Shown piece after piece: positions 709-20,724 of a stretch of 40,035 nt of DNA. The DNA comes from Halorubrum kocurii JCM 14978. GTDB taxonomy: Archaea; Halobacteriota; Halobacteria; Halobacteriales; Haloferacaceae. Below the pieces are notes generated by a model. It ran no database searches and was not told where the DNA came from. It worked only from the letters and a program-made list of their open reading frames with translations. The stretch covers positions 380 through 40,414 of the forward strand of contig NZ_AOJH01000079.1 in assembly GCF_000337355.1 (NCBI RefSeq), read 5' to 3'. Within the stretch, counting starts at the first letter, position 1. The number at the start of each line of letters is the position of its first letter. The translations under genes and the position numbers were made by a program.

Positions 709-3700
709 TCAGTCGCCCTCGCTCCCGCACTCGCTCTCGCCCGCCGCGGGGTCGGCGGTGAGCCCGTCCGCGTCGACACGCCACCGGTCTGCGAGGTCGC
801 GGTACGCCGCCGGGTCGGTCGGCGAGCCCTCGAGCACCGAGCCGAGCGCCTCCTCGTCGAGTTCGCCGGGCTCCGGGTGAGACGCGAGCAGCGCCGCCAA
901 CGCCTCGGCCGCGGGGACGACCGCGCGCACGCACTCGATCCGACGGCCGAACTCGAGCGCCGCGGTCAGCCGGTCGACCGCCGTCTCCGCGTCCCCGCGC
1001 TCGACCGCGACCCGTCCGCGGTCGGCGAGCGCGCGCGCCTCGACGGCTGTGAACCCGCCCGCACGGGCCCGCTCCACCCCGGAGTCGAGCGCGGCCGCGG
1101 CGCGGTCGAGGTCGCCGCGTTCGAGCGCGAGGACGCCGCGGTTCCGGTCCGCCGTCGCCGCCCGCCGCCGACTGGCGTGCTCGTCGAGCAGCGACTCGGT
1201 CCGGTCGATCCACCGCTCGGCGGCGTCGAGGTCGCCCCGCTGGAGTTCGACCTCGGCGAGGGTCTCGGCGACCATCGCCCGCCTGGAGTCGGCGTCGAGG
1301 TCCTCGAACGTCGCCAGCGCGTCGCGGAGACACCGCTCCGCGCGGTCGAGGTCGCCGGCGAGCTGCGCCGCCGACCCCAGGTGGCTCACCGCGAACGCGC
1401 GGTACAGGCCGGAACCGATCCGGTCCGCGATGGCCCGGGCCTCCCGCGCGCGGGTCGCCGCCTCGTCGACCTCGCCGCGCTGCTCGGCGATCGCACCGAG
1501 GTTCAACAGGACGACCGCCTCGCGGTGCTCGTCGCCGACGGTCCGGTAGCCGTCGAGCGCGCGCTGCGCCTCGCGTTTCGCGGCCGTCAGCTCGCCGCGT
1601 CGGAACCGGGCGACCGCGAGGTTAGTCCGGACGTTCGCCTCGCCGTGGGTGTCGTCGTACGCCCCGAACAACCCGCCGGCGATCCGGTAGTGATCGATGA
1701 CCGCGTCGGTGCCGTCGAGCGCGTCGAGCGCGTTTCCGATGTCCATGAGGCTCTTCGCGACCCCGATCGGGTCGCCGACGGCCGCGGCGAGCGCGTACGC
1801 CCGGGAGCCCGCCTCGTACGCGGCCTCGTAGTCGCCCGCGAAGTGGGCGGCCTGCGCTCTCCCCCGGACCGCGGCGGCGAGCCCGCGCCGGTCGCCGGCC
1901 GCGGAGAACAGCGCCGCGGCGCGGTCGTAGCGCTCCCTCGCGGCGTCGTACTCCCCGCGTCGACGCGCCACGTCGCCGTACCCGCGCTGGCGTTCGGCCT
2001 CGCCGGCCTCCTCCGTCGGGCGCCACGCGTCGAGCGCGTCGGTCGCGCCGTCGAGGTCGCCGGCGTCGACGTACATGCGGACCACCCACTCCGGCGGTCG
2101 GCCTCGGAGGTCGGACGGACAGGCGTCGGGGAGGTCGATCCACGAGTAACGGACCCGTCCGTACAGCTCCGCGAGCCGCGGGTAGCGTCGGCCGACGCCG
2201 TAGACGGCCCGCACTGCGCCGGCCGCCCACGCCTCGGGGTCGCGCTCGACCCGGTCCATCGCCGGCGCGTCGCCGCCCAGGGCGCGTCGGATCCGCGACC
2301 GCCGAGCGGGGTCGTCCGCCAGCTCGAGCACCCGCGTCGCCGCCCGTCCGACCCGTCTGGCGACGACGGGCTCCGGCTCCCGTTCGAGGAGGCGCTCGAA
2401 GAACAGCACCGACCACTCCCGGTGGACCGTCCGCCCCGGGTCGGTCGGCGTCGGGACGAGGACGGTGCCCGACAGCCGGTCGAGCGCCCGCCGCACCGCC
2501 TCCGGCTCCGTCTCGCCGTCGACGAGCGCGTGCGCGAGCTCCCGAACGTCGTCGACGCCGGCCACGTTGAGCAGGTTCACCAGCACCGCGACGTCCGCGG
2601 TCGGCGGCGGCCGGTCGGTCAGGTCGCGGACCGCCCGCGAGACGGAGGCCTCAAGCCCCGTCTCGTCGGTCTCTTCCGGCTCTTTTCCCCGTTCTCCGCC
2701 GGCTAGGGGGTCGCCGCCGGCCGGGGAGTCGCCGCCGGCCGGGGAGTCGCCGCCGGCCGGGGAGTCGCCGTCCAGCAGGCCGCCGGCCCGCACGAGGCGG
2801 TGAACGAGACACAGCAGCTCCCCGGGGCGGTCGCCGTCAGGCCGCCGCACCGCGTCGAGGAGCGCGCCCGGGTCGGCGACGGGCGAGGCGCCGGTGCAGT
2901 CCGCGACGTGGGCCGCGAGCCGCTCGGCCTCGCGCTCGTCGAGCCGCGGCATCCGCCGCGACTCGATCCGCCCTCGGTACTCGAGGTCGCTCGGATCGAG
3001 GGGGAGCGAATCGGGGTCGTCGTACCGCTCCTCGCGCGCGTCGAAGAGGAACGAGACGTCGTCCCGGTCGGCGAGTTCGCGGGCGACCCCGACCGCGTCG
3101 GCCGCGTCGTCGTCGACGACGTCCTCGACGACGACGAGCACGTGCCCCTCGGCGGCGACCGCGCGCTCGCGGAGCCGGTCGGTCGCCGAGAACGGCTCCC
3201 CCTCGTCGCCGGCGCGGTACAGCACCGATCCGCGCCCCGACCGATGCCACCGCACGCCGACGAGCCGGCAGACCGTGCTCTTCCCGCTGCCGGCCGGGCC
3301 GACCAGCGCGTGGTCGTCGCCCCTCGCGAGCCCCTCGATCAGCCCGTCGGCGACCGACCGCCGCGAGCCGTCGCGGACCGCGGTCCGGTCGAGCGCGAAT
3401 CCAGCGTCGACCTCCGCGAGCGACGGCGTCGCGCGGAGCGGCCCCGTCGGGTCGGCGTCGCGGTCGAGCAGCGCGTCGTCGAGCGCGACGAACCCCTGCG
3501 CGGAGAGCGAGTCCGGGGGCGCGCCGCCGGCCCGCGGCGGTGCGCCGAAGGCGTCGAACCCGCGCGCATCGGCGTCGAACCCGCCCGCGTCGGCGTCGGC
3601 CCCGCGGTGGGCGCCGTTGCCGCTGCGCTCGCCGGAACCGCCGGCGGACCCCGCGCCTCCGACGGCTCCGGTCTCCCCGTCGCGCGCGGTTCGCGCCTCC

Positions 3701-4473
3701 CGGATCGCCGCGAGCTCGTCGGTTACGTCGCGGCCCGATTCGCGGAGGGCGCGAACGCGGTCGCGCGCCCACGCCACCGCCTCGGGATCCGCCGACTCGA
3801 CCACGGCGTGAACCCCGCCGTCCGTGTCGAACACGACGAGGAGCGCGGTCTCGTCGGCGACGAGGCAGCCGACGTCGACGCCCTCGGCGACCGACACCGC
3901 GGCGCGGTCGCCGGCCGCCAGCGCCCCGAGCGTGTCGGCGTAGCGCTCGCGCCCGTGTCGGTACGTGCTGTCGGTCACCGCGAGGTCGACGCGCTCGCCG
4001 GCGTCGGCCGCGCGTCGGAACCGGTCGAGCAGGCGGGGATACGGGAGTGCTGGGAGCGCCGCGGCGACGCCGTCCGCCCTCGCGAGCGCCGCGTCGATCC
4101 GCTCTAATGGCCGGTACGGGTCGGGCGCCGCGGCCCGGTAGGTGTCGGCGTCTCGCAGCGTGGCCGGGGAGAGCGCGACCTCGGGGCCGAGCGGTGCGAG
4201 CGCGTCGCTCGCGGCGTCGACGTCGGCGGCGACGGTCAGGAACCGCCGGTAGCTCTGCGCCAGCAGGCGACCGGAGAGCGTCGTCCGGTAGCCGTCGGTC
4301 TCGCCGGCGACGAGCCCGGCGGCCTCCAGCTCGTCGATGGCCCGGTTGACCGTCGAGCGCGAGTGACCCAGCTCGTCCACCAGCTCGTGTTTTCGGAGCG
4401 CCCCCTCGGAGAGACGTTCGAGGAAGTCCAACCGGCGCTCGACCACCTCGACGAGTGCTGACCGCGCCTCCAT
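709..4473 (-). CDS. winged-helix/FilR1-like + P-loop NTPase + TPR fusion regulator (STAND-like)
   Basis: A 1254-residue multidomain protein. Residues 1-75 form a winged helix (LVDELGHSRSTVNRAIDELEAAGLV). Residues about 85-250 resemble the FilR1-type effector domain of archaeal HTH regulators. Residues 260-320 are a Gly/Ala/Asp-rich linker. An NTPase follows, with Walker A GPAGSGKST at 392-400 and a Walker B-like VLVVVED at 445-451. Residues 568-592 are a repetitive linker encoded by 18-base tandem repeats, and 605-700 look like a second winged helix. From about 800 to 1190 helical pairs repeat in TPR style (e.g. RGEYDAARERYDRA, RGDLDAAERWID). This is the architecture of STAND signalling ATPases, with an added DNA-binding sensor at the N-terminus. 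Its ligand and targets are unknown. It is divergent from the aldehyde-dehydrogenase homologue at 4591 and probably initiates from a TATA-like box near 4500. Confidence 0.78.
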   Translation of the reverse strand: MEARSALVEVVERRLDFLERLSEGALRKHELVDELGHSRSTVNRAIDELEAAGLVAGETDGYRTTLSGRLLAQSYRRFLTVAADVDAASDALAPLGPEVALSPATLRDADTYRAAAPDPYRPLERIDAALARADGVAAALPALPYPRLLDRFRRAADAGERVDLAVTDSTYRHGRERYADTLGALAAGDRAAVSVAEGVDVGCLVADETALLVVFDTDGGVHAVVESADPEAVAWARDRVRALRESGRDVTDELAAIREARTARDGETGAVGGAGSAGGSGERSGNGAHRGADADAGGFDADARGFDAFGAPPRAGGAPPDSLSAQGFVALDDALLDRDADPTGPLRATPSLAEVDAGFALDRTAVRDGSRRSVADGLIEGLARGDDHALVGPAGSGKSTVCRLVGVRWHRSGRGSVLYRAGDEGEPFSATDRLRERAVAAEGHVLVVVEDVVDDDAADAVGVARELADRDDVSFLFDAREERYDDPDSLPLDPSDLEYRGRIESRRMPRLDEREAERLAAHVADCTGASPVADPGALLDAVRRPDGDRPGELLCLVHRLVRAGGLLDGDSPAGGDSPAGGDSPAGGDPLAGGERGKEPEETDETGLEASVSRAVRDLTDRPPPTADVAVLVNLLNVAGVDDVRELAHALVDGETEPEAVRRALDRLSGTVLVPTPTDPGRTVHREWSVLFFERLLEREPEPVVARRVGRAATRVLELADDPARRSRIRRALGGDAPAMDRVERDPEAWAAGAVRAVYGVGRRYPRLAELYGRVRYSWIDLPDACPSDLRGRPPEWVVRMYVDAGDLDGATDALDAWRPTEEAGEAERQRGYGDVARRRGEYDAARERYDRAAALFSAAGDRRGLAAAVRGRAQAAHFAGDYEAAYEAGSRAYALAAAVGDPIGVAKSLMDIGNALDALDGTDAVIDHYRIAGGLFGAYDDTHGEANVRTNLAVARFRRGELTAAKREAQRALDGYRTVGDEHREAVVLLNLGAIAEQRGEVDEAATRAREARAIADRIGSGLYRAFAVSHLGSAAQLAGDLDRAERCLRDALATFEDLDADSRRAMVAETLAEVELQRGDLDAAERWIDRTESLLDEHASRRRAATADRNRGVLALERGDLDRAAAALDSGVERARAGGFTAVEARALADRGRVAVERGDAETAVDRLTAALEFGRRIECVRAVVPAAEALAALLASHPEPGELDEEALGSVLEGSPTDPAAYRDLADRWRVDADGLTADPAAGESECGSEGD
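2708..2770. repeat. 18-base tandem repeat inside the NTPase gene
   Basis: Two clean 18-base units (2726-2743, 2744-2761), flanked by one diverged unit before and a partial unit after. Each encodes Asp-Ser-Pro-Ala-Gly-Gly in the linker between the NTPase core and the following winged-helix region. The unit length is a multiple of three, so changes in copy number would keep the frame. Confidence 0.9.
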
Positions 4474-4497
4474 TCGTCAGCTACGAGTCGGCCTACC

Positions 4498-4506
4498 CGA
4501 ATAACT
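4498..4506 (-). promoter_or_regulatory. TATA-like box for the NTPase-TPR gene
   Basis: On the minus strand this reads AGTTATTCG, 25-33 bases upstream of the ATG at 4473. That is the expected spacing for a leaderless haloarchaeal transcript. It is one of the few AT-rich spots in the divergent intergenic region. Confidence 0.45.
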
Positions 4507-4559
4507 GTTTCCTCGGTCACACGTTCCCTCACGGGGTGACACAGTGCGTCACCGGATGA

Positions 4560-4567
4560 GAATATGT
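4560..4567 (+). promoter_or_regulatory. TATA-like box for the ALDH-like gene
   Basis: GAATATGT lies 24-31 bases upstream of the ATG at 4591, which supports that start over the in-frame ATG at 4564, which falls inside the box. The divergent promoters for 4473 and 4591 sit only about 55 bases apart, so one regulator could act on both. Confidence 0.5.
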
Positions 4568-4590
4568 GGTTGGGCGAGCGAGGTCCGCGT

Positions 4591-6054
4591 ATGGACGGGG
4601 GAGCGATCACCGACCCGGAGGGCGGTGACAGGGTGTCGACGACCGTCGCGAACGCCCGCGCCGCGGGGGCGCGGCTCGCCGAGCGCGACGACGCCGCGGC
4701 GGACCGGATCGCCGAGGCGGTCGGCGAGCGGCTGAGCGACCCGCAGGCGATCAGCCGGCTGGCGCTGGCGGCCGCGAACGAGACCGGGAGGGGCCATCCG
4801 GGGGCGAAGAGCGAGAAGATCGCGGCAGCCGTCGAGGGGGCGCGGGCGCACGTCCGCGAGACGCCCACCGCGGGCGTGGTCGAGCGAGACGAGCCGCGGG
4901 GTAGGCTCACCGTCGCCCGGCCGGTCGGCGTCGTCGGCGCCGCGGTCCCCGCGACGCACCCGGTGGTCGTCTCCGCCGCGGTGTCGCTGTACGCGCTGGC
5001 CGGACGGAACGCCGTCGTCCTCGCGCCGTCCCCGTCGACGGTCGAGACCTGCGACATGGTCGTCGAGACGCTACGGGGGGCGCTCGCGGCCGCGGACGCG
5101 CCCGTAGACGCCGTCTCGATGCTCCCCGCCCCGCCCTCGAAGCCCGGCACCGACTCGCTGTTCGAGCGGGTGGACGTCGCCGTCGCGTCCGGCTCCGCGT
5201 CGACCGTCACCGCCGGCCAGCGGTGCGGGACGCCGAACGCGTGTGCCGGCGCAGACGGACTCGTCGCTGTCTCCGACGGCTCGGCGTCGCCCTCGGCGGT
5301 GGCGACCCGCGTGGCGGTCGGCGCGACCTACGACTTCGGCGCTCACCCCGCGGCCGACGCGGCCGTGGTGAGGTCGGCGGAGACCGCTGAGCCGCTGACC
5401 GCCGCCCTCGAAGCCGAGGGCGGCTACGTTCTCGACGCCGACGAGCGCGACCGCCTCCGGGGGCTACTGGCGGGCGGTTCGGCGTCACACCGGGCGACCG
5501 ACGCGGATCGAGACGCGAGGACGGCCTCTCCGGTCGGCAACTCGCCGCGGTGGTTCGCATCGGTGCTCGACCTGCCCCCCGCCGCGGACGCCGCGGCCTT
5601 CCTGATCGTCGACGGCGGGGACCTGCGCGACGGCGGAGAGCCGGACGGAGGCGAGGACGCCGGGAACGACCCACTCGCCTCGCTCCCGGGGATTCCGGCG
5701 GTCACGGTCCACGCCCGCGAGGGGTTTGACGCCGCGCTGCGGCTGGCGGCCGATCTGGGCGGCCCCCACGCGGCCGCGGTCCACACGACGCGGCAGGCGC
5801 GCGTCGCGCGGGCCGCGGAGCGGCTCGCGGCCGGTCGGCTCGTGGTCAACCAGCCGGGGACCGCGGCGGTGGGGTCGACGCGGAACGGGCTCCCGTTCGC
5901 GCCGCTCCTCGGAGGCGGAGCGCGCGAGGGGAGCCAACTCGACGGCGGGCTGACCGCGACCGACCTGATCGAGACGACGAGCGTCTCGGTGACGACCGTC
6001 GCCGACCGCCATCCGAACCGGGGCGGAGCGGGGGAGACGCTCCGGGGGCCGTAA
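4591..6054 (+). CDS. acylating-type aldehyde dehydrogenase homologue lacking the catalytic Cys
   Basis: A 487-residue protein with the fold landmarks of acetaldehyde dehydrogenases of the EutE/AdhE type: the cofactor-site segment PVGVVGAAVPATHP (111-124) leading to GRNAVVLAPSP (138-148), the LFERVDVAVASGSAS stretch (190-204), and a C-terminal RLVVNQPGTAAVGST (416-430) followed by a PLLGGG loop. In working relatives the nucleophile follows a GASFDN-type motif. Here the equivalent GATYDFGAHPAAD (244-256) has Pro at the expected Cys position, and the only cysteines are 154, 212 and 218. Classical aldehyde oxidation or CoA acylation through a thioester therefore looks impossible. It may be a binding or regulatory paralogue, or use another chemistry. 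There is also an Asp/Gly-rich insert around 340-362. It is divergent from the NTPase-TPR regulator and convergent with the HD gene. The start was chosen by TATA spacing. Confidence 0.75.
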   Translation: MDGGAITDPEGGDRVSTTVANARAAGARLAERDDAAADRIAEAVGERLSDPQAISRLALAAANETGRGHPGAKSEKIAAAVEGARAHVRETPTAGVVERDEPRGRLTVARPVGVVGAAVPATHPVVVSAAVSLYALAGRNAVVLAPSPSTVETCDMVVETLRGALAAADAPVDAVSMLPAPPSKPGTDSLFERVDVAVASGSASTVTAGQRCGTPNACAGADGLVAVSDGSASPSAVATRVAVGATYDFGAHPAADAAVVRSAETAEPLTAALEAEGGYVLDADERDRLRGLLAGGSASHRATDADRDARTASPVGNSPRWFASVLDLPPAADAAAFLIVDGGDLRDGGEPDGGEDAGNDPLASLPGIPAVTVHAREGFDAALRLAADLGGPHAAAVHTTRQARVARAAERLAAGRLVVNQPGTAAVGSTRNGLPFAPLLGGGAREGSQLDGGLTATDLIETTSVSVTTVADRHPNRGGAGETLRGP

Positions 6055-10060: not shown

Positions 10061-11451
10061 ACGAGGGCGACGAGCGCGACGCGGCCGTGGAACCGCCCGC
10101 CGAGCCCACCGAGGGCAACCCGTCGGTCCGGCGCGTGAGCGACTGGGACGCCGAGCGCCTCGCCGACCTCGCGGCCGAGCACGGCACGCCCCTCTACGTG
10201 CAAGACCTCGACCGCGTCCGCGAGAACTGCGAGCGCCTGCGCGACGCCTTCCCCGACGCCGACGTGCGATACGCGGTGAAAGCCCACACCGGTCGGGCCG
10301 TGCTTGAGGCGGTCCGCGAGTCGGAGCTGGACGCCGAGTGCGCCTCGGCGGGCGAGGTCGACCGCGCGCTCGCGGCCGGCTTCGGCGGCGAGCGACTCCA
10401 CTACACCGCGGTCAACCCGCCCGCCCGCGACCTTGACTACGTCGCCGGCGTCGCGGAGGCGGAGCCGGATCTGACCGTGACGGTCGGCGCCGTCGACACC
10501 CTCGACCGGCTGGCCAAGCGCGGCTACGACGGTCGGGTCTGCGTCCGGGTGAACCCCGGCGTCGGCGCGGGCCACCACGAGAAGGTCCGGACCGGCGGCG
10601 CGGCCAAGTTCGGGGTCCCGTACGACCGCGCCGCCGACGCGGCACGCCGAGCCGCAGAGCGGTTCGACGTCGTCGGTGTCCACGCCCACGCCGGCTCCGG
10701 CATCGACCCCGAGCAGCTGGACAGCCACCGCGAGCTGGTGGCGCGGATGGGCGAGCTGGCGCGGGAGCTGGTCGACCCGAGCGACGCCAATACCGCCCCC
10801 CTCGACCTCGAGTACGTCGACGTCGGCGGCGGCTTCGGCGTCCCGTATGAGGAAGACGAGCCCCCGCTCGATCTCCCGGCCGTCGCCGAGGCGACGCGGG
10901 AGGCGGTCGCGCCTCTCCCTTCGGGCGTTGACCTTGCGATCGAGCCCGGCCGGTACGTGGTCGCCGACGCGGGCGCCCTCTTGACGCGCGTGAACACGGT
11001 GAAGCCGACGCCGGACGAGCGCGTTGTCGGCGTTGACGCCGGCATGACGGACCTGCTGCGCCCGGCGATGTACGACGCGTACCACCCGATCCGGAACCTC
11101 GGGGGCGGACGGAACGCCGACGGGAGCGACGCGTCTGCTCCCGACGACCGGTCGGCAACCCCTGTCACGGTCGCCGGACCTATCTGTGAGACCGGCGATA
11201 CGCTCTGTAGGAACCGAGCGCTCGCCGACCCGACCCGCGGGGACCTCCTCGCGGTCGGGGTCGCGGGCGCGTACGGATACGAAATGGCGAGCCAATACAA
11301 CTCACGACCGCGACCGGCGGAGGTCGCGCTCGACGACGGGACAGCGGCGGTCGTCCGACGCCGGGAGACGCTCGGCGACCTGACGGCGGTCGAGCGGGAA
11401 CCGAACCGAGACCGACACGACCGGACCGACCGAACGGAGGCGGGCCGATGA
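10057..11451 (+). CDS. lysA: diaminopimelate decarboxylase
   Basis: Decarboxylates meso-diaminopimelate to L-lysine using PLP. The 464-residue protein of the fold-III PLP (alanine-racemase-like barrel) family carries the PLP lysine Lys75 in RYAVKAHTG, the glycine-rich VDVGGGFGVPY (255-264) for phosphate binding, EPGRYVVADAG (297-307), and the active-site Cys378 in GPICETGD. The N-terminal 25 residues and the C-terminal charged tail (NRDRHDRTDRTEAGR) extend beyond the core. It overlaps dapD at the start and dapF at the end, each by an ATGA. The longer open frame beginning at 9385 is a shadow of dapD. Confidence 0.95.
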   Translation: MNEGDERDAAVEPPAEPTEGNPSVRRVSDWDAERLADLAAEHGTPLYVQDLDRVRENCERLRDAFPDADVRYAVKAHTGRAVLEAVRESELDAECASAGEVDRALAAGFGGERLHYTAVNPPARDLDYVAGVAEAEPDLTVTVGAVDTLDRLAKRGYDGRVCVRVNPGVGAGHHEKVRTGGAAKFGVPYDRAADAARRAAERFDVVGVHAHAGSGIDPEQLDSHRELVARMGELARELVDPSDANTAPLDLEYVDVGGGFGVPYEEDEPPLDLPAVAEATREAVAPLPSGVDLAIEPGRYVVADAGALLTRVNTVKPTPDERVVGVDAGMTDLLRPAMYDAYHPIRNLGGGRNADGSDASAPDDRSATPVTVAGPICETGDTLCRNRALADPTRGDLLAVGVAGAYGYEMASQYNSRPRPAEVALDDGTAAVVRRRETLGDLTAVEREPNRDRHDRTDRTEAGR

Positions 11452-12377
11452 GCGCTCACGCCGTCCCGTTCGAGAAGTACCACGGCACGGGCAACGACTT
11501 CCTCGTCGTCGACGCGGCCGCCGAGGGCGTCGGCGACCGGGCGGCGTTCGCGCGCGCCCACTGCGACCGCGAGACGGGCGTCGCCGGGGCGGAGTCCGGT
11601 GCCGAGGGAACCGGGGACTCCACCGGTCGACGCGGCGCCGACGGCGTTCTCTTCTTAAGCGTCGAAGACCGCTTCGACCCGACCCGCGTCGTGATGACGC
11701 TGGTCCAGCCGGACGGGTCCACGGCGACCATGTGTGGCAACGGCGCCCGCGTCGTCGCCCGGTGGGCCCACGACCGGACGGGCGACCGCGAGTTCATGAT
11801 CGACACCCAGGCGGGGACCCGGCGCGCCTCCGTGAACGCGGACGCGACCGCGGCCACCATCGAGATGGGCGAGCCGACGTTCGACCCCCGATGGGTCCCG
11901 GTCGACCGCGACGAGCCGCTGATCGACGAGCCGGTCGCCGGACTGACCGTCACCGCCGTCAACACCGGGGTCCCGCATGCGGTCGCGTTCGTCGACGGCG
12001 GCCGCGACGACCCCGACGGGATCGACGTGGTCGACCTCGACTCGGTCGCGCCGCCGGTCCGCCACGCCGACGTCTTCCCCGACGGCGCGAACGTGAACCT
12101 CGCGAGCGTCGTCGACGACGGGAGCGGCGACGGCCCCGCCGTCATCGACCAGCGCACCTTCGAGCGCGGCGTCGAGGGCGAGACCCGTTCCTGCGGTACC
12201 GGCGCGGTCGCGGTCGTCGCAGCCGCGCGGCGGCTCGGCCTGATCGACGGGGAGTCCGCGGTCAGCCGCCCCCCGGGCGGCGAACTGGAGATCGCGGTGC
12301 CGGACCGCGGCCACGCGACCCTGACCGGTCCCGTCGCCCGCGAGTACGAGGGGATGCTCCCCGCCGACCCGCGATGA
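11448..12377 (+). CDS. dapF: diaminopimelate epimerase
   Basis: Interconverts LL- and meso-diaminopimelate by a PLP-independent two-cysteine mechanism, supplying the LysA substrate. Both catalytic cysteines are in place in the 309-residue protein: Cys96 in MCGNGARVVARWA and Cys249 in RSCGTGAVAVVAA. The N-terminal FEKYHGTGNDFLVVD is the family signature. An acidic, Gly-rich insert lies at about 45-66, common in halophile proteins. It is translationally coupled to lysA before it and dapE after it. Haloarchaea lack murein, so this epimerase is likely needed only for lysine. Confidence 0.95.
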   Translation: MSAHAVPFEKYHGTGNDFLVVDAAAEGVGDRAAFARAHCDRETGVAGAESGAEGTGDSTGRRGADGVLFLSVEDRFDPTRVVMTLVQPDGSTATMCGNGARVVARWAHDRTGDREFMIDTQAGTRRASVNADATAATIEMGEPTFDPRWVPVDRDEPLIDEPVAGLTVTAVNTGVPHAVAFVDGGRDDPDGIDVVDLDSVAPPVRHADVFPDGANVNLASVVDDGSGDGPAVIDQRTFERGVEGETRSCGTGAVAVVAAARRLGLIDGESAVSRPPGGELEIAVPDRGHATLTGPVAREYEGMLPADPR

Positions 12378-13585
12378 GCGAGGCGGCGTTCGACCCGGTC
12401 TCGTTTTTGGAGCGGGCGGTCCGGACCCCTTCCCACGAGTCGGTCGACGAGACCCGCGAGCTCGTCGTCGAGGCGCTCGAGCGGTTCGGGGTCGAGTGCG
12501 AGGTCGTCGCCGGCGGCTGCGTGCTCGCCGAGAAGCGGTCGGACACGCCCGACGACGGGCCGCACCTCGTGTTGAACACCCACCTCGACACGGTGACGCC
12601 ACACGTCCCGCTCGAGCGCGGCGAGGCGCGGGCGGACGAGCGGCCCGACTGCTCCTCCGACGACGCCCCCGAAGCCGTGATCCGCGGCCGCGGTGCCTGC
12701 GACGCGAAGGGGCCGCTCGCCGCGCTGCTGTCGGGCTTCCTCGCCGCCGATCCACAGCGGGGGCGGCTCACGCTCGCGCTCACCCCGGACGAGGAGTCGC
12801 TGTCGCTCGGCGCGGCGGCGCTGACCGGGCGGTCGCCCGGGACCGAGGACCGGCTCGACGGCGACCTCTATCTGGTCGGCGAGCCGACCGGCCTCGACGC
12901 CTGCACCGCCGCGAAGGGGCGGTTTCAGGGGACGGTCGAGCTGTCGGGGACCGCCGCCCACGCCGCGGAGTTTGCGGGGGCGAACGCTGTCGCGGCCGCC
13001 GAGGGCGCGCTCGCGGCCATCCGGACCTTCGACGCGGACGCCGGCGACCACCCCCAGCTCGGCCCGCCGAAGCTCACGCCGACCGTCATCGAAGGCGGCG
13101 GCGCGACGAACCAGGTGCCCGCGGACTGCGCGATCACCGTCGACAGGCGGAGCGTCCCGCCGGAGACGGCGGAGGGGTTCCGGTCCTCGCTCGCGGACGC
13201 TGTCCGGGGGTCGACGCCCGACGGCGTCGGCGTCGACGTCGCGCTGACGGACCGCGAGTCGCCCTTCTTCGAGGCGTTCTCGACGGACCCGGACCACGAG
13301 CTGGTGGCGACGGTCGCGAGCGCGGCTCGGAGCGCCGCCGAGTCGGTCGGCCTTCCGGCGGACCGCGGCGGCGCGGCCCGCCCCTTCGGCGCAGCGACGG
13401 AGGCGTCGTACTTCGCGCCGGCCCCGACGGTCGTGTTCGGTCCCGGGGACCTCGCGGACGAGGCCGGCGCGGTGGCGCACGCCGAGCGGGAGTACGTCCG
13501 GGTCCGAGAGGTAGCGGCGGCGGCCGAGGCCGTCGAAGGGTCGATTTCGGCGCTGCTCGGGGACGCGGGCGAGAGGGAGAGCTGA
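12374..13585 (+). CDS. dapE: M20 succinyl-diaminopimelate desuccinylase
   Basis: Hydrolyses N-succinyl-LL-diaminopimelate to LL-diaminopimelate and succinate. The 403-residue zinc peptidase of family M20 has the metal ligands in NTHLDTV, GRGACDAKG, the PDEES pair, GEPTGL and the C-terminal ADEAGAVAHAEREY. A dimerisation lid domain (about 185-290, including GTAAHAAEFAG) sits in the usual place. M20 enzymes also include deacetylases for arginine and lysine pathways, but the operon position and the presence of dapD favour DapE. It is the last gene of the operon and converges with the NYN gene, with only 17 bases between the stops. Confidence 0.9.
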   Translation: MSEAAFDPVSFLERAVRTPSHESVDETRELVVEALERFGVECEVVAGGCVLAEKRSDTPDDGPHLVLNTHLDTVTPHVPLERGEARADERPDCSSDDAPEAVIRGRGACDAKGPLAALLSGFLAADPQRGRLTLALTPDEESLSLGAAALTGRSPGTEDRLDGDLYLVGEPTGLDACTAAKGRFQGTVELSGTAAHAAEFAGANAVAAAEGALAAIRTFDADAGDHPQLGPPKLTPTVIEGGGATNQVPADCAITVDRRSVPPETAEGFRSSLADAVRGSTPDGVGVDVALTDRESPFFEAFSTDPDHELVATVASAARSAAESVGLPADRGGAARPFGAATEASYFAPAPTVVFGPGDLADEAGAVAHAEREYVRVREVAAAAEAVEGSISALLGDAGERES

Positions 13586-14211: not shown

Positions 14212-16140
14212 ATGTCACGTCGACACACTGACGAAACCGAAGGTGGCCGGCACATCGGTCGCCGACAATGGCTCTCCGCGCTCGGTATCGCCGGCGTCGC
14301 GACGCTGGCGGGCTGCTCCGAGCAGGGCGGTGACGGGGGCGACGGAAGCGACGGAAGCGACGGAAGCGACGGAACGGACGGCGGTGACGGAGACGACGGG
14401 GGCGACGGCGGAGACGGCGTCGAACTCGGCGACTTTCCGAAGTTCGGGGTTGACGACCTCTACGGCCCTGAGGTTGCCCGAAACCTGGCGCAACAGGCGT
14501 TCGAGCAGTCGGAGTACGAGTACGGCTTCGACGGCGACACGATGGTCAACCCGGACGGCGACCAGGTGGAGATCAACATCTACCACAGCGCCGGGCAGGA
14601 GACCTCACAGCTCACCGCAGAGTTCATCGCCCAGGAGCTCGGCGAGAACCTCGGCATCAACGTTGTCGTCGAGGCGATCGACGGCACTCGGTTCAACAAC
14701 GAGTACTGGACCGGTGAGCCGCAGGGAGGGACCGACACGGTCAACGGCGAGGAGGTCGAGTGGGAGAGCCCGACGCCGCAGAACCCGGGTCCCCGCTCCG
14801 TCACGAGCAACGAGCCGTGGGACATGTCAGTCGTGTTCGGACTGAACACGTATCCGCTGAACCCGCTCACGAACGAGGTGTTCTTCGACGGCGCCAACCC
14901 GTTCTACAACCCGGTCGGCTACTACCCGCAGTTCGACGCGCAGGCACTGTTCGAGGAGGCCCGACAGGCGTCGAGCCGAGAGGAGCTGCAGCAGGCGTTC
15001 GTGGAGATCTTTGAGAACCTCGCCCGCGAGCAGCCCTACATCACGCTGCTGTTCAGCGACGACCTCGTCGGCTACAATCCCGACCTCGAAGGGCCGATCG
15101 AGAACTTCTCGAACGGCTGGGACCTGCCCGCGTGGCACTTCAACGACCCTTCCGTCTCCGGCTCGTACGACACCGTCACCTCGGCCGGGTTCACGACCCT
15201 GAACCCGCTGTACAACACCGAAAACGGTGCCGGGAACGCGATCGCCCGCGCGCTCGACCAGGGATACACGTTCGACGAGAACCAGGAGTACTTCCCGCTG
15301 CTGTACGACATGTCCACCGAGGACGGCGAGGTGTGGACCTTCGAGGTCCGCGAGAACCTCCAGTTCAGCGAGCCGTACGGACAGGTCACGGCGGAGGACT
15401 TCGTCTACCTGATTCAGGAGCTCCACCAGAGCGACTGGGCGAACACGGCGGCGTCCAGCAGCTGGGACGGCGTCGAGGTCGAACAGACCGGCGAGTTCGA
15501 GTTCGAGGCCACGCTGGAGTCGCCGAACCTCCTGTGGCCCCAGACGTACGACCCGCTCCTGTACCCGATCCCGCGCGGTCTGGTCGAACCGTACGTCGAG
15601 GAGGAGGACGTCGAAGGGCTCGAACAGAACGAGGAGCTGCTCGAGCTCCAGTTCACCGGCAACCTCGGCCCCTTCACGCTCGACGAGTGGAACCGCGGCT
15701 CCGGCACGGAGTACACCCGCAACGACGAGTACTACCTGCGCGACATCGACGAGGGACCGGACCTGTTCTCTGAGGGGCCGCTGTTCGAGGAGGCCAAGAT
15801 CAGCGTCGTCGAAGAGCAGGCGTCCCGGCTCGGCGCCCTGGAGACCGGAGAGGCCGACTCCGCGGCGATTCCGCCGGAGCAGTACGAGTCGTACGACGAA
15901 GACGAGAACGTAACTGTCCGGCAGGTGCCTACCCCGTACAACACGATCATCTCCGTGAACCAGCGCGAGAACGGCTGGAACGCCGGCCCGGGGAACCTGT
16001 TCCAGCTCGTTCCCTTCCGACAGGCGCTGGCGTCGGCGATCAGCAAAGACAGCCTCATCGAAGGCGTCTACCGCGGACTGGCGGAGCCGCACTTCACCTG
16101 GCAGCCCCGCTGGTCTGAGTTCTACCCGGGCGAGGAATAG
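14212..16140 (+). CDS. ABC substrate-binding lipoprotein (SBP_bac_5 type), apparently circularly permuted
   Basis: A 642-residue extracytoplasmic binding protein. Residues 15-35 form a Tat lipoprotein signal (GRRQWLSALGIAGVATLAGC, lipid-attachment Cys35). A Gly/Asp/Ser linker (36-72) follows, encoded partly by 9-base repeats near 14341-14373. The body is in unusual order. Residues 76-312 match the second lobe of peptide/nickel binding proteins: DLYGPEVAR, the DGDTMVNPDGDQVEI strand, TAEFIAQELGENLGINVVVE, a helix of EARQASSREELQQAF type, and EQPYITLLFSDDLVGY. Residues 317-642 match the first lobe: TLNPLYNTENGAGNAIARAL, WTFEVRENLQFS, VTAEDFVYLI, then PFRQALASAISKDSLIEGVYRG, ending at WSEFYPGEE. 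In normal relatives that end continues directly into the DLYGPE segment found here at residue 82. Both lobes seem complete, so binding may be preserved. The permease genes follow 39 bases later. The substrate is probably a peptide or similar oligomer but is not determinable. Confidence 0.85.
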   Translation: MSRRHTDETEGGRHIGRRQWLSALGIAGVATLAGCSEQGGDGGDGSDGSDGSDGTDGGDGDDGGDGGDGVELGDFPKFGVDDLYGPEVARNLAQQAFEQSEYEYGFDGDTMVNPDGDQVEINIYHSAGQETSQLTAEFIAQELGENLGINVVVEAIDGTRFNNEYWTGEPQGGTDTVNGEEVEWESPTPQNPGPRSVTSNEPWDMSVVFGLNTYPLNPLTNEVFFDGANPFYNPVGYYPQFDAQALFEEARQASSREELQQAFVEIFENLAREQPYITLLFSDDLVGYNPDLEGPIENFSNGWDLPAWHFNDPSVSGSYDTVTSAGFTTLNPLYNTENGAGNAIARALDQGYTFDENQEYFPLLYDMSTEDGEVWTFEVRENLQFSEPYGQVTAEDFVYLIQELHQSDWANTAASSSWDGVEVEQTGEFEFEATLESPNLLWPQTYDPLLYPIPRGLVEPYVEEEDVEGLEQNEELLELQFTGNLGPFTLDEWNRGSGTEYTRNDEYYLRDIDEGPDLFSEGPLFEEAKISVVEEQASRLGALETGEADSAAIPPEQYESYDEDENVTVRQVPTPYNTIISVNQRENGWNAGPGNLFQLVPFRQALASAISKDSLIEGVYRGLAEPHFTWQPRWSEFYPGEE

Positions 16141-16179: not shown

Positions 16180-17154
16180 ATGGGATTTGGAAGGTACGTT
16201 ACCGCTCGCGTCCTCTGGGCCGGAGTGGTATCGCTCATCATCACGACGATCACGTTCCTGCTCGTCTCCGCCGCGCCCAATCCGTCGGTCCAAGAGGCGG
16301 CGACGCAGGCCGCACTACAGGGCGGTGACCCGGCCGAGGCCGCCGAGCGCGCGCGCGAGCTTCGCGGGCTCGATCAGCCCCTCTACGTCCGCTACATGGA
16401 CTTCATCGAGAGCGTCTACACGTTCGACTGGGGCTGGTCTCGCAGCCGGAGCCAGCCGGTGACCGAAGCGCTCGGGCAGGGGCTCTACTACACCGCGCAG
16501 TACTCCGTGCCGTGGACGGTCCTGACGGTCCTGATCGGTCCGCTGGTCGGCGTCTACTCCGCGGCGAACATGTACTCCTGGAAGGACCACGCCGCGACCG
16601 GGTTCGCCTTCTTCGGGTACGCCATCCCGAACTTCTTCTTCGGGATCATCCTGCTCCTGATCTTCGGCGTCTGGCTGGAGGTCATTCCGGTCGTGTACAA
16701 CACCGACGTCGCGGTGTTCAGCGTACAGAACGCCGTGCAGCTGTCGATCCCGGTGTTCGTCCTAGTCACCGGATCGATCGGTGCGGTCATGCGCGTCTCG
16801 CGCAACGAGTCGGCGGAGTTCCAGAACGCCGAGTTCATGAAGACGGCGAAGGCCAAGGGGGTCTCGCCGCTGCGCGCGTACGCGTATCACGTGATGCGGC
16901 CGACGCTCGTGCCGCTGTCGACGACCCTCGTCGGACAGCTGCTGGCGCTGTTCCTCGGGTCGTCGCTGCTCGTGGAAGTCGTGTTCGGCATCCCCGGGAT
17001 CGGCCGGGTGACGTACAACGCGCTGATCGCACAGGACACGAACCTGCTGTTGGGCTCGACGCTGGCGTTCACGTTCATCGCCGTCATCGGGAACCTCTTG
17101 GAGGACCTCGTGTTCACGGTGCTCGATCCGCGGATCAGCTACGACGACAGATAA
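16180..17154 (+). CDS. ABC transporter permease, DppB/OppB type
   Basis: A 324-residue inner-membrane permease. A first membrane helix lies at about 9-30 (LWAGVVSLIITTITFLLV). An extracytoplasmic stretch containing GLDQPLYVRYMDFI follows, as in DppB relatives. Further helices lie at about 110-132, 143-170, 190-208, 247-267 and 291-312. The cytoplasmic EAA loop for the ATPase reads EFMKTAKAKGVSPLRAYAYHV (220-240). With the DppC-like partner it would form the translocation channel. The gene lies 39 bases after the binding-protein gene and 15 bases before the next permease, clearly the same operon. Confidence 0.92.
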   Translation: MGFGRYVTARVLWAGVVSLIITTITFLLVSAAPNPSVQEAATQAALQGGDPAEAAERARELRGLDQPLYVRYMDFIESVYTFDWGWSRSRSQPVTEALGQGLYYTAQYSVPWTVLTVLIGPLVGVYSAANMYSWKDHAATGFAFFGYAIPNFFFGIILLLIFGVWLEVIPVVYNTDVAVFSVQNAVQLSIPVFVLVTGSIGAVMRVSRNESAEFQNAEFMKTAKAKGVSPLRAYAYHVMRPTLVPLSTTLVGQLLALFLGSSLLVEVVFGIPGIGRVTYNALIAQDTNLLLGSTLAFTFIAVIGNLLEDLVFTVLDPRISYDDR

Positions 17155-17169
17155 CTCGAGGACACAGAC

Positions 17170-18354
17170 ATGGCTACACAGAAACCGGAACGATTCGATC
17201 AGGTCGACTGGACGGAGATATCGCGGTCGCGGTGGTTCGACCTGTCGATCAACAGCATCGGCATGCTCGCCGCCGCGCTTCCCCTCCTGATTGTCGCGCT
17301 GTACGACTGGCAGGTCCTCGACGAGCGGACGCCGACCCTCGAGCCCGTCGGCCCAGCGTGGGACGTCGGGACCGTCGATTACCTGTTCATCTTCACCCTG
17401 CTGCTGTTCGCGTTCTACATCGTGCTCCCGCTGTTCCAGAACCCGCGGCGGACGAAGTACTACTGGCGGGAGTTCAAGCGCAACCGCCCTGCGGTCGTGA
17501 GCCTCGGCTGGCTCGCGGTCGTGTTCGTCGGCGGCATCTTCGGGCCGTTCTTCATCAGCGCGCCCGAACAGAGCATCCTCACCGGCTACCAGCCCCCCGT
17601 CTTCCTCTCGGTCGAGCAGTCGTACGTCTCCACGTGCGTCGGCGAGGTCGTCAACAACCAGTGTCAGGGGACGTGGCAACACCCCCTCGGCACGACGGCC
17701 GGCGGGAAAGACGTGTTCTCGGGGATCGTCCACGGGATGACGATCAGCATGCAGATCGGGTTCATCACGACGACGATCGTGGCGACGATCGGCATCACGT
17801 TCGGGACGGTCAGCGCGTACGCCGGCGGCTGGGCTGACGAGCTGATGATGCGGTTCGTCGACATCGTGCTCTCGTTCCCGACGCTCCTGATGTTCCTGCT
17901 CATCCTGTACATCTACGGGGCCGGACTCGGGATGTTCATCGTCGTCTTCGCCGCGTTCGCGTGGGGCGGCACCGCCCGATACGTCCGCAGCAAGTCGCTG
18001 TCGATCTCCGAGGAGGAGTTCATCAAGGCGAACCGAATCAGCGGCGCGAGCACCTACCGCGTCGTGAGACGCCACGTCGTGCCGAACGCGGCCAGCAGCA
18101 TCATCACGCAGCTCACGCTGCTCATTCCGGGGTTCCTGCTCGCAGAGGCGCAGCTCGCCTTCCTCGGACTCGGCGACTCCACGATCCCCTCGTGGGGACA
18201 GCTCATCTCGGCCGGCCGCAGCGACCTCTCGTTCGCGCCGTGGATCGTCTTGGCGCCCGGTATCGTCCTGTTCTTGACCATCTTGGCGTTCAACTTCCTC
18301 GGCGACGCGCTCCTGGACGCCCTGAACCCCGAAGCGGAGGCGGAGAACGCATAA
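17170..18354 (+). CDS. ABC transporter permease, DppC/OppC type
   Basis: A 394-residue permease, about 100 residues longer than bacterial DppC. The extra length is N-terminal: two added hydrophobic segments (about 25-45 and 72-90) precede the standard N-terminal helix (110-128) and the HPLGTTAGGKDVFSGIVHG motif (176-194) found in this family. The EAA loop reads EEFIKANRISGASTYRVVRRH (280-300), and later LGLGDSTIPSWGQLI is also typical. The start ATG lies 15 bases after the preceding stop. The stop TAA shares one base with the ATG of the ATPase gene. Such N-terminal extensions are, as far as I recall, usual in haloarchaeal members. Confidence 0.92.
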   Translation: MATQKPERFDQVDWTEISRSRWFDLSINSIGMLAAALPLLIVALYDWQVLDERTPTLEPVGPAWDVGTVDYLFIFTLLLFAFYIVLPLFQNPRRTKYYWREFKRNRPAVVSLGWLAVVFVGGIFGPFFISAPEQSILTGYQPPVFLSVEQSYVSTCVGEVVNNQCQGTWQHPLGTTAGGKDVFSGIVHGMTISMQIGFITTTIVATIGITFGTVSAYAGGWADELMMRFVDIVLSFPTLLMFLLILYIYGAGLGMFIVVFAAFAWGGTARYVRSKSLSISEEEFIKANRISGASTYRVVRRHVVPNAASSIITQLTLLIPGFLLAEAQLAFLGLGDSTIPSWGQLISAGRSDLSFAPWIVLAPGIVLFLTILAFNFLGDALLDALNPEAEAENA

Positions 18355-19394
18355 TGGCCACCCCACTGCTCGAGGTCGAAGACCTCAAGACGACGTTTAG
18401 CACCGACAACGGAGATCTCACGGCCGTCGACGGGATCGACTTCGCCGTCGACGAGGGCGAGACGGTGTGTATCGTCGGGGAGTCGGGCTCCGGGAAGACG
18501 GTCGCGACCGAGTCGATCACGCGGATCGTCAAGGAGCCGCCCGGCCGCGTCGAGGGGACCGTCCGGTTCAAGGGCCGCGACCTGCTGTCGATGTCCGAGG
18601 AGGAGCTTCGGCAGATCCGCGGAAACGGGATCGCTCACATCTTCCAGAACCCGCAGGAGGCGATGAACCACTGTTACACCGTCGGGTGGCAGATCGCCGA
18701 GGCGCTCCAGATCCACCAGGACGTTCCGGACAAGAAGGCGCGGGCACGGGCGGTCGACCTGCTCGACCGGGTCGGCATCGCCAACGCGAGCACGCGCTTC
18801 GACGACTACCCGCACGAGTTTTCCGGCGGGCAGAAACAGCGCGTGATGATCGCGATGGCGCTCGTGAGCGACCCAGACCTGCTGATCGCCGACGAGCCGA
18901 CGACCGCGCTCGACGTGACGGTGCAGGCGCAGATTCTCAAGCTGCTCGACGAGCTCCAAGACGAGTTCGACATGGGGATCCTCTTCGTGACCCACGACCT
19001 CGGGGTGGTCGCGCAGATCGCCGACCGGATCGTGGTGATGTACGCCGGGAAGGTGATGGAGCGCGGCGGCGTGCTCGACATCTTCGAGCACCCGGCGCAC
19101 CCGTACACCCAACAGCTGCTGAACTGCGTCCCGGAGATCGGCGGGAACGAGGGTGGGATCCCCGGCACGCTGCCGAACCCGCACGACCCGCCGGACGGCT
19201 GTCGGTTCGCGCCGCGGTGCTCGTACGCAGAGCAGACCTGTCGGACCGGCGGACAGCCCGAGGAGCTCGACGTGAGCCCCGGTCAGCGGGTCTCTTGTAT
19301 CCACTACCGAGACGGTCGGGACCCGTCTCTGCTCCGCGAGAACGCCCCCGGCGTCGAGTCGGGTTCGAACGGGGTGAGCTCGGCGGATGACTGA
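18354..19394 (+). CDS. ABC transporter ATP-binding protein, DppD/OppD type
   Basis: A 346-residue ATPase: Walker A GESGSGKT (about 41-48), Q-loop in FQNPQEAMN, signature SGGQKQR, Walker [13 protein letters not shown], and H-loop THDLG. The C-terminal oligopeptide/dipeptide extension carries the cysteine pattern [14 protein letters not shown], matching the cluster-binding motif seen in peptide and nickel transporters. It drives import through the two permeases upstream, pairing with the DppF-like ATPase. The start ATG at 18354 follows the permease stop in a TAATG; the frame stays open upstream to 17961, but that part is a shadow of the permease. The end overlaps the next gene by eight bases. 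Confidence 0.94.
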
Positions 19395-20724
19395 CGAGCC
19401 GATCCTCTCGGTTCGAGACCTGAAGAAGCACTACCCGATCCGGAAGGGGATTTTCAACCGGCAGGTCGGCGCCGCGAAGGCCGTCGACGGGATCGGCTTC
19501 GACATCGCGCCCGGCGAGACCCTGGGGCTGGTCGGCGAGTCGGGCTGCGGGAAGTCGACCGCCGCGAGCTCCGTCATCCGGCTGGAGGAGCCGACCGCCG
19601 GGGAGGTCGTGTTCAACGGGAACGGCCGAGGCGGCGCGAGCCGCGACTCGGACGGCACCCACCCGAACGATGTGACCGAGTTCTCTGACGCGGAGCTCAA
19701 GCGGTTCCGCCGCGGGGCCCAGATGATCTTCCAGGACCCGGCGTCGAGTTTCGATCCGCGGATGACGGTCGGCAGCGCGGTCGCGGAGATGCTGGAGGTC
19801 CACGGGATGTCAGACCGCCACCGGCGGCGGGCGATCGTTGAGGACCTGCTCGAACGCGTCGGGCTCTCGGCGGAGGACTACGACCGGTACCCGCACGAGT
19901 TCTCGGGCGGGCAGAAACAGCGGATCGCGCTGGCCCGAGCGCTGGTGTTGAACCCGGATCTGATCATCGCCGACGAGCCCGTCTCGGCGCTCGACGTGTC
20001 GATCCAGGCGGAGATCCTCTCGCTCATCGACGATCTCCAGACGGATTTCGACCTCTCGTTGCTGTTCATCAGCCACGACATGTCGGTGATCCGCCGGATC
20101 TGCGACCGCGTCGCGGTGATGTACCTCGGCGAGATCGTCGAGGTCGGCCCGACCGACGAGGTGTTCGCCGACCCGCAACACCCCTACACCGAGGCGCTGC
20201 TGTCGTCGATCCCGACCCCGAATCCGCGGTCGACGGTCGGCGGGATCGAGCTCGCCGGGACGGTGCCGAGCCCGACGAATCCGCCGAGCGGGTGCCGGTT
20301 CCACACGCGGTGTCACCGCGTCATCCAGCCGGACGGGGTCGACGTCGACCAGTCCGACTGGCGCGGGATACTGAACTTCCGCGACCGCGTCGCGGCCGGC
20401 CAGGTAGACGTCGAGAGCATCCGAGAGAACATCGTCGTCGACGACGGACCCACGAGCGACGACCACGTCAGGGCACAGCTCCGAACCGAGTTCGACATCG
20501 ACGAGCGGATCGGCGACCCCGAGATCGAAGGCACCCTTCAGGACGCGATCGACCGGCTCCTCGCCGGCGACGACGAGGCGGCGGCGGAGCTGCTCTCCGA
20601 CCGGTTCACCACCCCGTGCGCGGAGACGGTCCCGGAGCGGACCGTCCACTCCCCGGACCACGAGTCGTCGTGTCTCCGCCACGAGTCGGAGCAAGCGACC
20701 GCACCGGGGGCGGCCGACGACTGA
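19387..20724 (+). CDS. ABC transporter ATP-binding protein, DppF/OppF type
   Basis: A 445-residue second ATPase of the transporter: Walker A GESGCGKST (about 49-57), FQDPASSFDPR, signature SGGQKQR, Walker B LIIADEPVSALD, and SHDMS H-loop. The peptide-transporter C-terminal region contains SGCRFHTRCHRV. A further tail of roughly 110 acidic residues (from about 335) extends beyond bacterial OppF. It begins with a helix containing RENIVVDD and ends in DHESSCLRHESEQ, with possible metal-binding residues; its role is unknown. It is the last gene of the operon and converges with the AMP-ligase-like gene 12 bases on. Confidence 0.93.
   Translation: MTDEPILSVRDLKKHYPIRKGIFNRQVGAAKAVDGIGFDIAPGETLGLVGESGCGKSTAASSVIRLEEPTAGEVVFNGNGRGGASRDSDGTHPNDVTEFSDAELKRFRRGAQMIFQDPASSFDPRMTVGSAVAEMLEVHGMSDRHRRRAIVEDLLERVGLSAEDYDRYPHEFSGGQKQRIALARALVLNPDLIIADEPVSALDVSIQAEILSLIDDLQTDFDLSLLFISHDMSVIRRICDRVAVMYLGEIVEVGPTDEVFADPQHPYTEALLSSIPTPNPRSTVGGIELAGTVPSPTNPPSGCRFHTRCHRVIQPDGVDVDQSDWRGILNFRDRVAAGQVDVESIRENIVVDDGPTSDDHVRAQLRTEFDIDERIGDPEIEGTLQDAIDRLLAGDDEAAAELLSDRFTTPCAETVPERTVHSPDHESSCLRHESEQATAPGAADD

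Follow-up and report, generated by a model that had tools for sequence, protein, structure and literature searches.

A natural circular permutant among the haloarchaeal SBP_bac_5 binding proteins, as indicated by sequence comparison

We have analyzed 40,035 nucleotides of the Halorubrum kocurii JCM 14978 genome (contig NZ_AOJH01000079.1, positions 380 to 40,414), which we call the window. One of its genes, at 14212-16140, very probably encodes a working lipid-anchored binding protein of cluster C (SBP_bac_5), belonging to a Dpp/Opp-type ATP-binding cassette (ABC) importer, in which the mature body is a natural circular permutant. That the protein works is suggested by its conservation in 19 Halorubrum genomes, by purifying selection on it and by its apparent exchange with normal-order alleles in front of related transporters.

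The two halves of the body are swapped

The gene is a single open reading frame (ORF) that begins with ATG and can be divided as follows.

14212..16140, + strand: putative permuted SBP_bac_5 binding protein, 642 amino acids, stop included (PF00496 at E 4.8e-43 in two stretches, PDB alignment, orthologue profile)
14212..14316, + strand: twin-arginine translocation (Tat) signal peptide ending in the lipobox LAGC, Cys35 (read from the sequence)
14317..14427, + strand: linker rich in Gly, Asp and Ser, residues 36-72 (sequence)
14428..15147, + strand: segments H and C, residues 73-312, matching the second half of ordinary SBP_bac_5 proteins (profile positions 336-565)
15148..15159, + strand: residues 313-316, part of the new joint WHFNDPSVSGSYD leading from the ordinary C-terminus to the ordinary N-terminus of the body
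15160..16137, + strand: segment N, residues 317-642, matching the first half of ordinary SBP_bac_5 proteins and ending WSEFYPGEE (Pfam, PDB, profile)

Segment H is a conserved stretch of ~33 residues at about residues 76-108. The lipobox region reads RRQWLSALGIAGVATLAGC with the cysteine at position 35; by eye, we take this and the twin arginine to be a lipoprotein signal. Translation and a Pfam scan agree with the sequence-only reading on the coordinates, the clean frame, the Tat lipobox, the Gly/Asp linker and the permease and ATPase genes that follow.

That reading had also proposed that the body is circularly permuted, and this is borne out, with the halves swapped relative both to AppA (PDB 1xoc) and to a profile of normal-order orthologues. 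SBP_bac_5 (PF00496) is the sole Pfam family in the protein at E 0.01, scoring 148.1 bits against a gathering score of 32.4. The better of its two stretches places residues 369-638 on profile positions 13-254, and two normal orthologues give one stretch each (13-328 and 9-339). Using phmmer, residues 322-632 align with 26-313 of the 1xoc chain, and the preceding residues align further along it, 106-158 with 347-398 (weak, -2.4 bits) and 211-294 with 421-501. A PDB search with a profile of the permuted sequences gave a swapped mapping on chains 1xoc and 8efz, the second-half pieces being weak in both.

The order was tested with a profile of 566 positions made from 40 normal-order orthologues, with ten more held out, some of which have close relatives in the training set. 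The window protein matches it in two pieces, residues 75-311 (body 3-239) on positions 336-565 and residues 312-642 (body 240-570) on positions 4-334. The two pieces together span nearly the whole profile, and thus nothing large is missing from the body or doubled in it. Re-ordering the body gives one domain over positions 6-565 with 912 bits, and the best single domain in the native order has 562 bits. All ten held-out orthologues give one domain in their native order and two when artificially swapped. Neither the PDB alignment nor the orthologue profile finds the ordinary order, N before C, in the window protein, and the homologues that do align with it end to end without a change of register are its permuted relatives. 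Since the segments are swapped, we file the protein as a permuted variant and not as an ordinary SBP_bac_5 member. These comparisons support its being a circular permutant of an SBP_bac_5 protein.

Permuted and ordinary orthologues within one genus

A match at 1e-60 is present in 76 of 170 genomes of the window's family, and a match at 1e-45 in 140 of 391 genomes of the class. Within Halorubrum we searched 52 genomes and found a match at 1e-60 in 34; the genus is assigned from several loci that are identical to named Halorubrum records. The swapped order that we looked for is present in 19 of the 34, where the gene aligns as one colinear piece, and in the other 15 it aligns in two pieces with N before C, the ordinary order. 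Not one of the 34 genomes has both orders at 1e-60. The permuted relatives range from 93% down to 73% identity to the window protein. The N half of the ordinary orthologues is 49-73% identical to it (at least 68% in 12 of 15), and permuted and ordinary orthologues in the genus are mostly about 70% identical.

The window genome is a draft of 105 contigs, so a swap of gene parts through faulty assembly or binning has to be considered. The same order occurs in 19 separately assembled Halorubrum genomes at 73-93% identity, and three of these assemblies (G120, G128 and G152; letters with numbers are our handles for genomes, loci and genus groups) comprise just 3 contigs each. An error of this kind is therefore excluded for practical purposes.

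We classified 135 ORFs of at least 350 amino acids, taken from loci picked by similarity: 68 were N-H-C, one N-C, 33 H-C-N, 20 C-N with a terminal H (scored in four and judged from the tail in the other 16), 12 N only and one N-H. The 12 N-only and the N-H ORFs were dropped, and then 35 duplicate rows of the remaining 122, leaving 87 distinct sequences. Fifty are ordinary. Nineteen have the window's arrangement, signal-H-C-N, which we call B, and 18 have arrangement A, signal-C-N-H, cut about 33 residues later than B. Against the orthologue profile all 19 B and 18 A sequences give two domains in the native order and one after re-ordering. Arrangement A was found in a Natronomonas metagenome-assembled genome (L063, which shares its contig with G362), and seven further genus groups also have it (g5, g9, g70, g86, g22, g47 and g73). 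Four of the 20 genomes in the genus of G362 match at 1e-60, one with A and three with the ordinary order. Searching plasmids with tblastn gave five records covering at least 80% of the query, all haloarchaeal; the four that were classified are all ordinary, and no publicly annotated permuted copy was seen among them.

Two of the genes may be damaged. The ordinary-order gene of L049 (G119) looks broken, with an N-H ORF at 1480-2667 that has no signal peptide and a C ORF at 2671-3231 in the same frame, separated by one stop. In the permuted gene of Halorubrum sp. CSM-61 (L051:9162-10898, the same gene as in L028) the open frame begins within the linker, so that the signal peptide is missing or in another frame; a frameshift in the repetitive linker may be the cause.

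The N-only paralogues amount to 12 ORF rows, some of them one gene in two loci, and 10 of the 12 match the profile in increasing order. In the other two, an SBP_bac_5-like paralogue adjoining the operon (L061:6551-8548 and L064:6413-8410, both on the - strand), a zero-bit stretch of the profile end lies before N, which we take as noise; it may be either that or another rearranged form.

Bodies appear to be exchanged in front of one transporter

In the window the binding-protein gene precedes genes for OppBC-type permeases and OppDF-type ATPases.

16180..17154, + strand: permease, DppB/OppB-like (PF00528, PF19300)
17170..18354, + strand: permease, DppC/OppC-like (PF00528, PF12911)
18354..19394, + strand: ABC ATPase, DppD-like, its start overlapping the permease stop (translation by eye; start deduced from the frame, end taken from ORF 17961..19394 in the same frame)
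19387..20724, + strand: ABC ATPase, DppF-like (PF00005, PF08352; PRK11308 at E 8.8e-109, below its cut-off)

The operon is flanked by a gene for an NYN-domain protein and by a TIGR03089-like gene (48.6 bits, cut-off 85). Both orders can occupy this site: the permuted genes of L050, L051, L055 and L057 and the ordinary genes of L072 and L073, for example, all lie downstream of the NYN and diaminopimelate (DAP) epimerase genes and upstream of the TIGR03089-like gene. Permease genes follow 14 of the 19 distinct B sequences; both ATPases are seen in ten of these, and in four the locus ends before the ATPases.

A tree of the permeases and ATPases was made from the 39 of 87 rows in which at least three of the four genes reach 55% identity, the two L086 rows sharing one gene set. 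The ordinary L064, L066, L067 and L068 fall inside permuted species, with support of 96-100 at the forks in the Shimodaira-Hasegawa-like approximate likelihood ratio test (SH-aLRT). A single clade of the ten permuted rows is rejected on this tree (p 2.8e-57). The body tree conflicts with the transporter tree, which we read as exchange of permuted and ordinary bodies in front of the same transporter. In five permuted/ordinary pairs from one transporter clade the signal-peptide DNA is 84-93% identical and the permease DNA 85-88%, and the body DNA is 72-76% identical. For same-order pairs across clades (L061/L050, L067/L072 and L061/L058) the signal peptide is 79, 71 and 68% identical and the body 86-87, 84-86 and 77-81%.

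Two measurements weigh against exchange. Permease identity across clades is 82-84%, near the 85-88% within the clade, and the 150 bases after the stop are 74-79% identical in the five pairs, no more than across clades (76%). The argument for exchange consequently rests mainly on the tree. The simplest reading would be that bodies were swapped by recombination, with the signal peptide and transporter kept; loss of one of two old tandem copies together with gene conversion would also fit. Permuted and ordinary bodies thus look like interchangeable alleles in front of closely related transporters.

Purifying selection, and binding proteins without a transporter

The ratio of nonsynonymous to synonymous change (dN/dS) was calculated by the NG86 method over segments N and C, for pairs that share sequences and so are not independent. 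Among pairs with the permease retained, six permuted ones give 0.088-0.181 and four ordinary ones 0.095-0.220; four deep A pairs give 0.029-0.197. The permuted protein is under purifying selection, with dN/dS as in its ordinary orthologues.

The transporter genes have gone from five of the 19 B sequences (L052, L056, L059, L062 and L034), and in these and in the ordinary L088 and L092 the TIGR03089-like gene directly follows the binding protein. In the genomes of these seven orphan loci the best permease match has at most 35% identity, and two have none at 1e-20. The bodies of L088 and L092 evolve fast and share a long branch (0.81-0.84) within Halorubrum. In both orders, therefore, the binding protein outlives its transporter under weaker selection.

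These orphans count against a uniform role as a component of the importer. Four permuted pairs that include an orphan have dN/dS of 0.204-0.331, and together with the operon losses this indicates that in some species the protein may not serve this importer. The same data could suggest that the permuted gene is decaying, or has taken on another use, and that its product has no binding role. We think this very unlikely, given the low ratios in the six permuted pairs with a permease and the value of 0.303 in the one pair of ordinary-order orphans, which ties the relaxation to loss of the transporter and not to order.

The order has probably changed more than once

Body trees were built in two ways, a quick one from N+H+C with 87 rows and a careful one from N+C with 67 rows after removing 20 near-duplicates. 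The PDB relatives and the paralogues have the ordinary order, which we therefore take as ancestral. The fewest order changes required is four on both trees, and also four using N alone or C alone.

B sequences form one clade (100/99, bootstrap/SH-aLRT). The closest relatives of B vary, being ordinary Halorubrum bodies on N+C (58/81) and Natronomonas-like bodies on N alone. Arrangement A occurs in three separate places among other haloarchaea. L063 pairs with an ordinary body from its own genus, L095 (100/99). The A clade of g22, g47 and g73 groups with the ordinary L129, L130 and L133 (99/93), apart from the A clade of g5, g9, g70 and g86. By this analysis three order changes are well supported and four is the best estimate, and permutation would have recurred in this family with two cut positions.

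Several results weigh against so high a number. The number of changes that well supported branches force is four for the joint data, but it falls to three for N alone and to two for C alone. In approximately unbiased (AU) tests the deep A sequences as one clade, and B joined with L063, are marginally rejected (p 0.045 and 0.026), and both groupings were picked with the tree already in view.

Instead of four origins there might have been only one or two ancient permutations, with later reversion to the ordinary order or spread through transfer of bodies. Bodies seem to move between lineages, as the conflict with the transporter tree suggests, and the three A lineages are cut at nearly the same profile position (363-373), with the p value for deep A as one clade only 0.045. 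We nevertheless regard this history as improbable. A single clade of all permuted forms (AU p 0.0008) or of all A forms (AU p 5.9e-7) is strongly rejected, L063 groups with the ordinary Natronomonas-genus body on N and on C taken separately (SH-aLRT 70 and 91), and a return to the ordinary order is itself a further permutation.

Joints, cut sites and a possible origin

In the window protein the joint from the ordinary C-terminus to the ordinary N-terminus reads WDLPAWHF-NDPSVSGSYDTVT, and GDFPKFGV and WSEFYPGEE are the new ends of the body. The joint of L063 retains 15-20 residues resembling the linker that precedes N in L095, its ordinary sister. The cut lies at profile positions 332-337 in B. 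An AlphaFold model of the normal form, poor as a whole, is locally better over residues 341-380 (predicted local distance difference test, pLDDT, 67-88), with a helix at 346-359 (H) followed by strands at 365-367 and 370-372. On this model, to which we give low weight, the A cut would fall in the FDGDEL turn that separates the strands. That an Asp/Gly turn and an Asp/Gly linker favor recombination by short repeats is a guess.

A plausible origin is tandem duplication with subsequent loss; permutation by duplication is the older of the two main models according to one review (PMC3320104). After an in-frame duplication, arrangement B would result if the N part of the first copy and the H-C part of the second were lost. 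L086 (G050) contains two ordinary-order copies, at 3099-5114 and 10768-12753, with ~7.6 kb between them; a permutation could begin from a near duplication of this kind.

It counts against this origin that no ORF with a repeated N or C segment, and so no duplicated intermediate, was found among ORFs of at least 100 amino acids in the limited sample of loci examined. That absence lends something to a different route, in which the gene split in two and fused in the other order, or a part was cut and pasted. The linker-like residues that the N part of L063 brings into its joint are allowed by either route. Against the different route, separate N and C frames were found in just one genome, in the apparently broken ordinary-order gene of G119 (L049). 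We consider this route possible but less likely than not.

Tentatively, and with rather more doubt than belief, we suggest that circular permutation has a hotspot in this lipoprotein family. The linker and the Asp-Gly turn after H would recombine by short repeats, so that permuted bodies arise repeatedly at the same cut (profile position ~368 in three lineages, ~335 in a fourth) and spread from species to species as exchangeable cassettes; the re-anchoring that results may be selected.

Proposed fold and function

In the permuted protein the ordinary N- and C-termini are joined over a few residues and the new termini lie just before segment H. The signal peptide and linker stay in front, so that the lipid anchor would enter the body at a new point. 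The body would fold as an ordinary two-lobed binding protein, bind its solute and dock to the permeases, only the anchor point being different. The lobes and hinge of cluster C proteins are described in PMC12136057. Permutation may be tolerated because the ordinary termini lie close together. The substrate is probably a peptide or similar solute.

AlphaFold does not strengthen this proposal, since its confidence is low in both forms, with pLDDT of 30.6 for the permuted form (14 sequences) and 41.5 for the normal form (ten sequences), probably due to the shallow alignments. The predicted fold of the permuted body consequently depends on sequence.

Comparison with known systems

The window protein has its segments, Pfam family and operon type in common with ordinary cluster C proteins such as AppA (1xoc), DppA and OppA. 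It differs in that the halves are swapped and the anchor enters the body elsewhere.

Natural permutation is already known, as is one permuted family of binding proteins. TpMglB-2 of Treponema pallidum (Tp0684, 'Cluster Bc') is described in its report (PMC4990184) as a natural circularly permuted, membrane-tethered ABC binding protein, and it shows that such a protein is able to bind ligand. Its authors raise there the possibility that tethering favored the topology. The permuted part is said in the same text to be poorly conserved relative to ordinary relatives, which makes cause and effect hard to separate in that case. Both TpMglB-2 and the window protein are thus natural permuted and tethered ABC binding proteins. 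Unlike TpMglB-2, the window protein has no Type I, cluster B sugar-binding family, PF00496 alone being found at E 0.01 and the PDB proteins among the matches listed being binders of oligopeptides, peptides and nickel. The haloarchaeal case falls in cluster C, has permuted and ordinary forms mostly ~70% identical within one genus, and appears recurrent, with two cut positions. Among the titles and abstract openings of the best-ranked matches in the open-access literature we found no permuted SBP_bac_5 (cluster C) protein.

The family could serve as a natural experiment on the freedom with which a working protein may be re-threaded. Because the two orders are so similar, occur in one genus and partly at one site, are associated with related transporters and seem to have several origins, three questions become directly testable: by what route permutations come about, what constrains the position of the cut, and whether it matters where a tethered binding protein is anchored.

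Swaposin, the DNA methyltransferases and the transhydrogenases are natural permutants that arose by duplication or by fission and fusion, as presented in PMC3320104, where the domain arrangements of transhydrogenases are said to have been acquired and fused independently. Theirs is the same kind of rearrangement as that of the window protein. In contrast to those cases, the apparent exchange of bodies in front of related transporters in the haloarchaea is visible between sister species.
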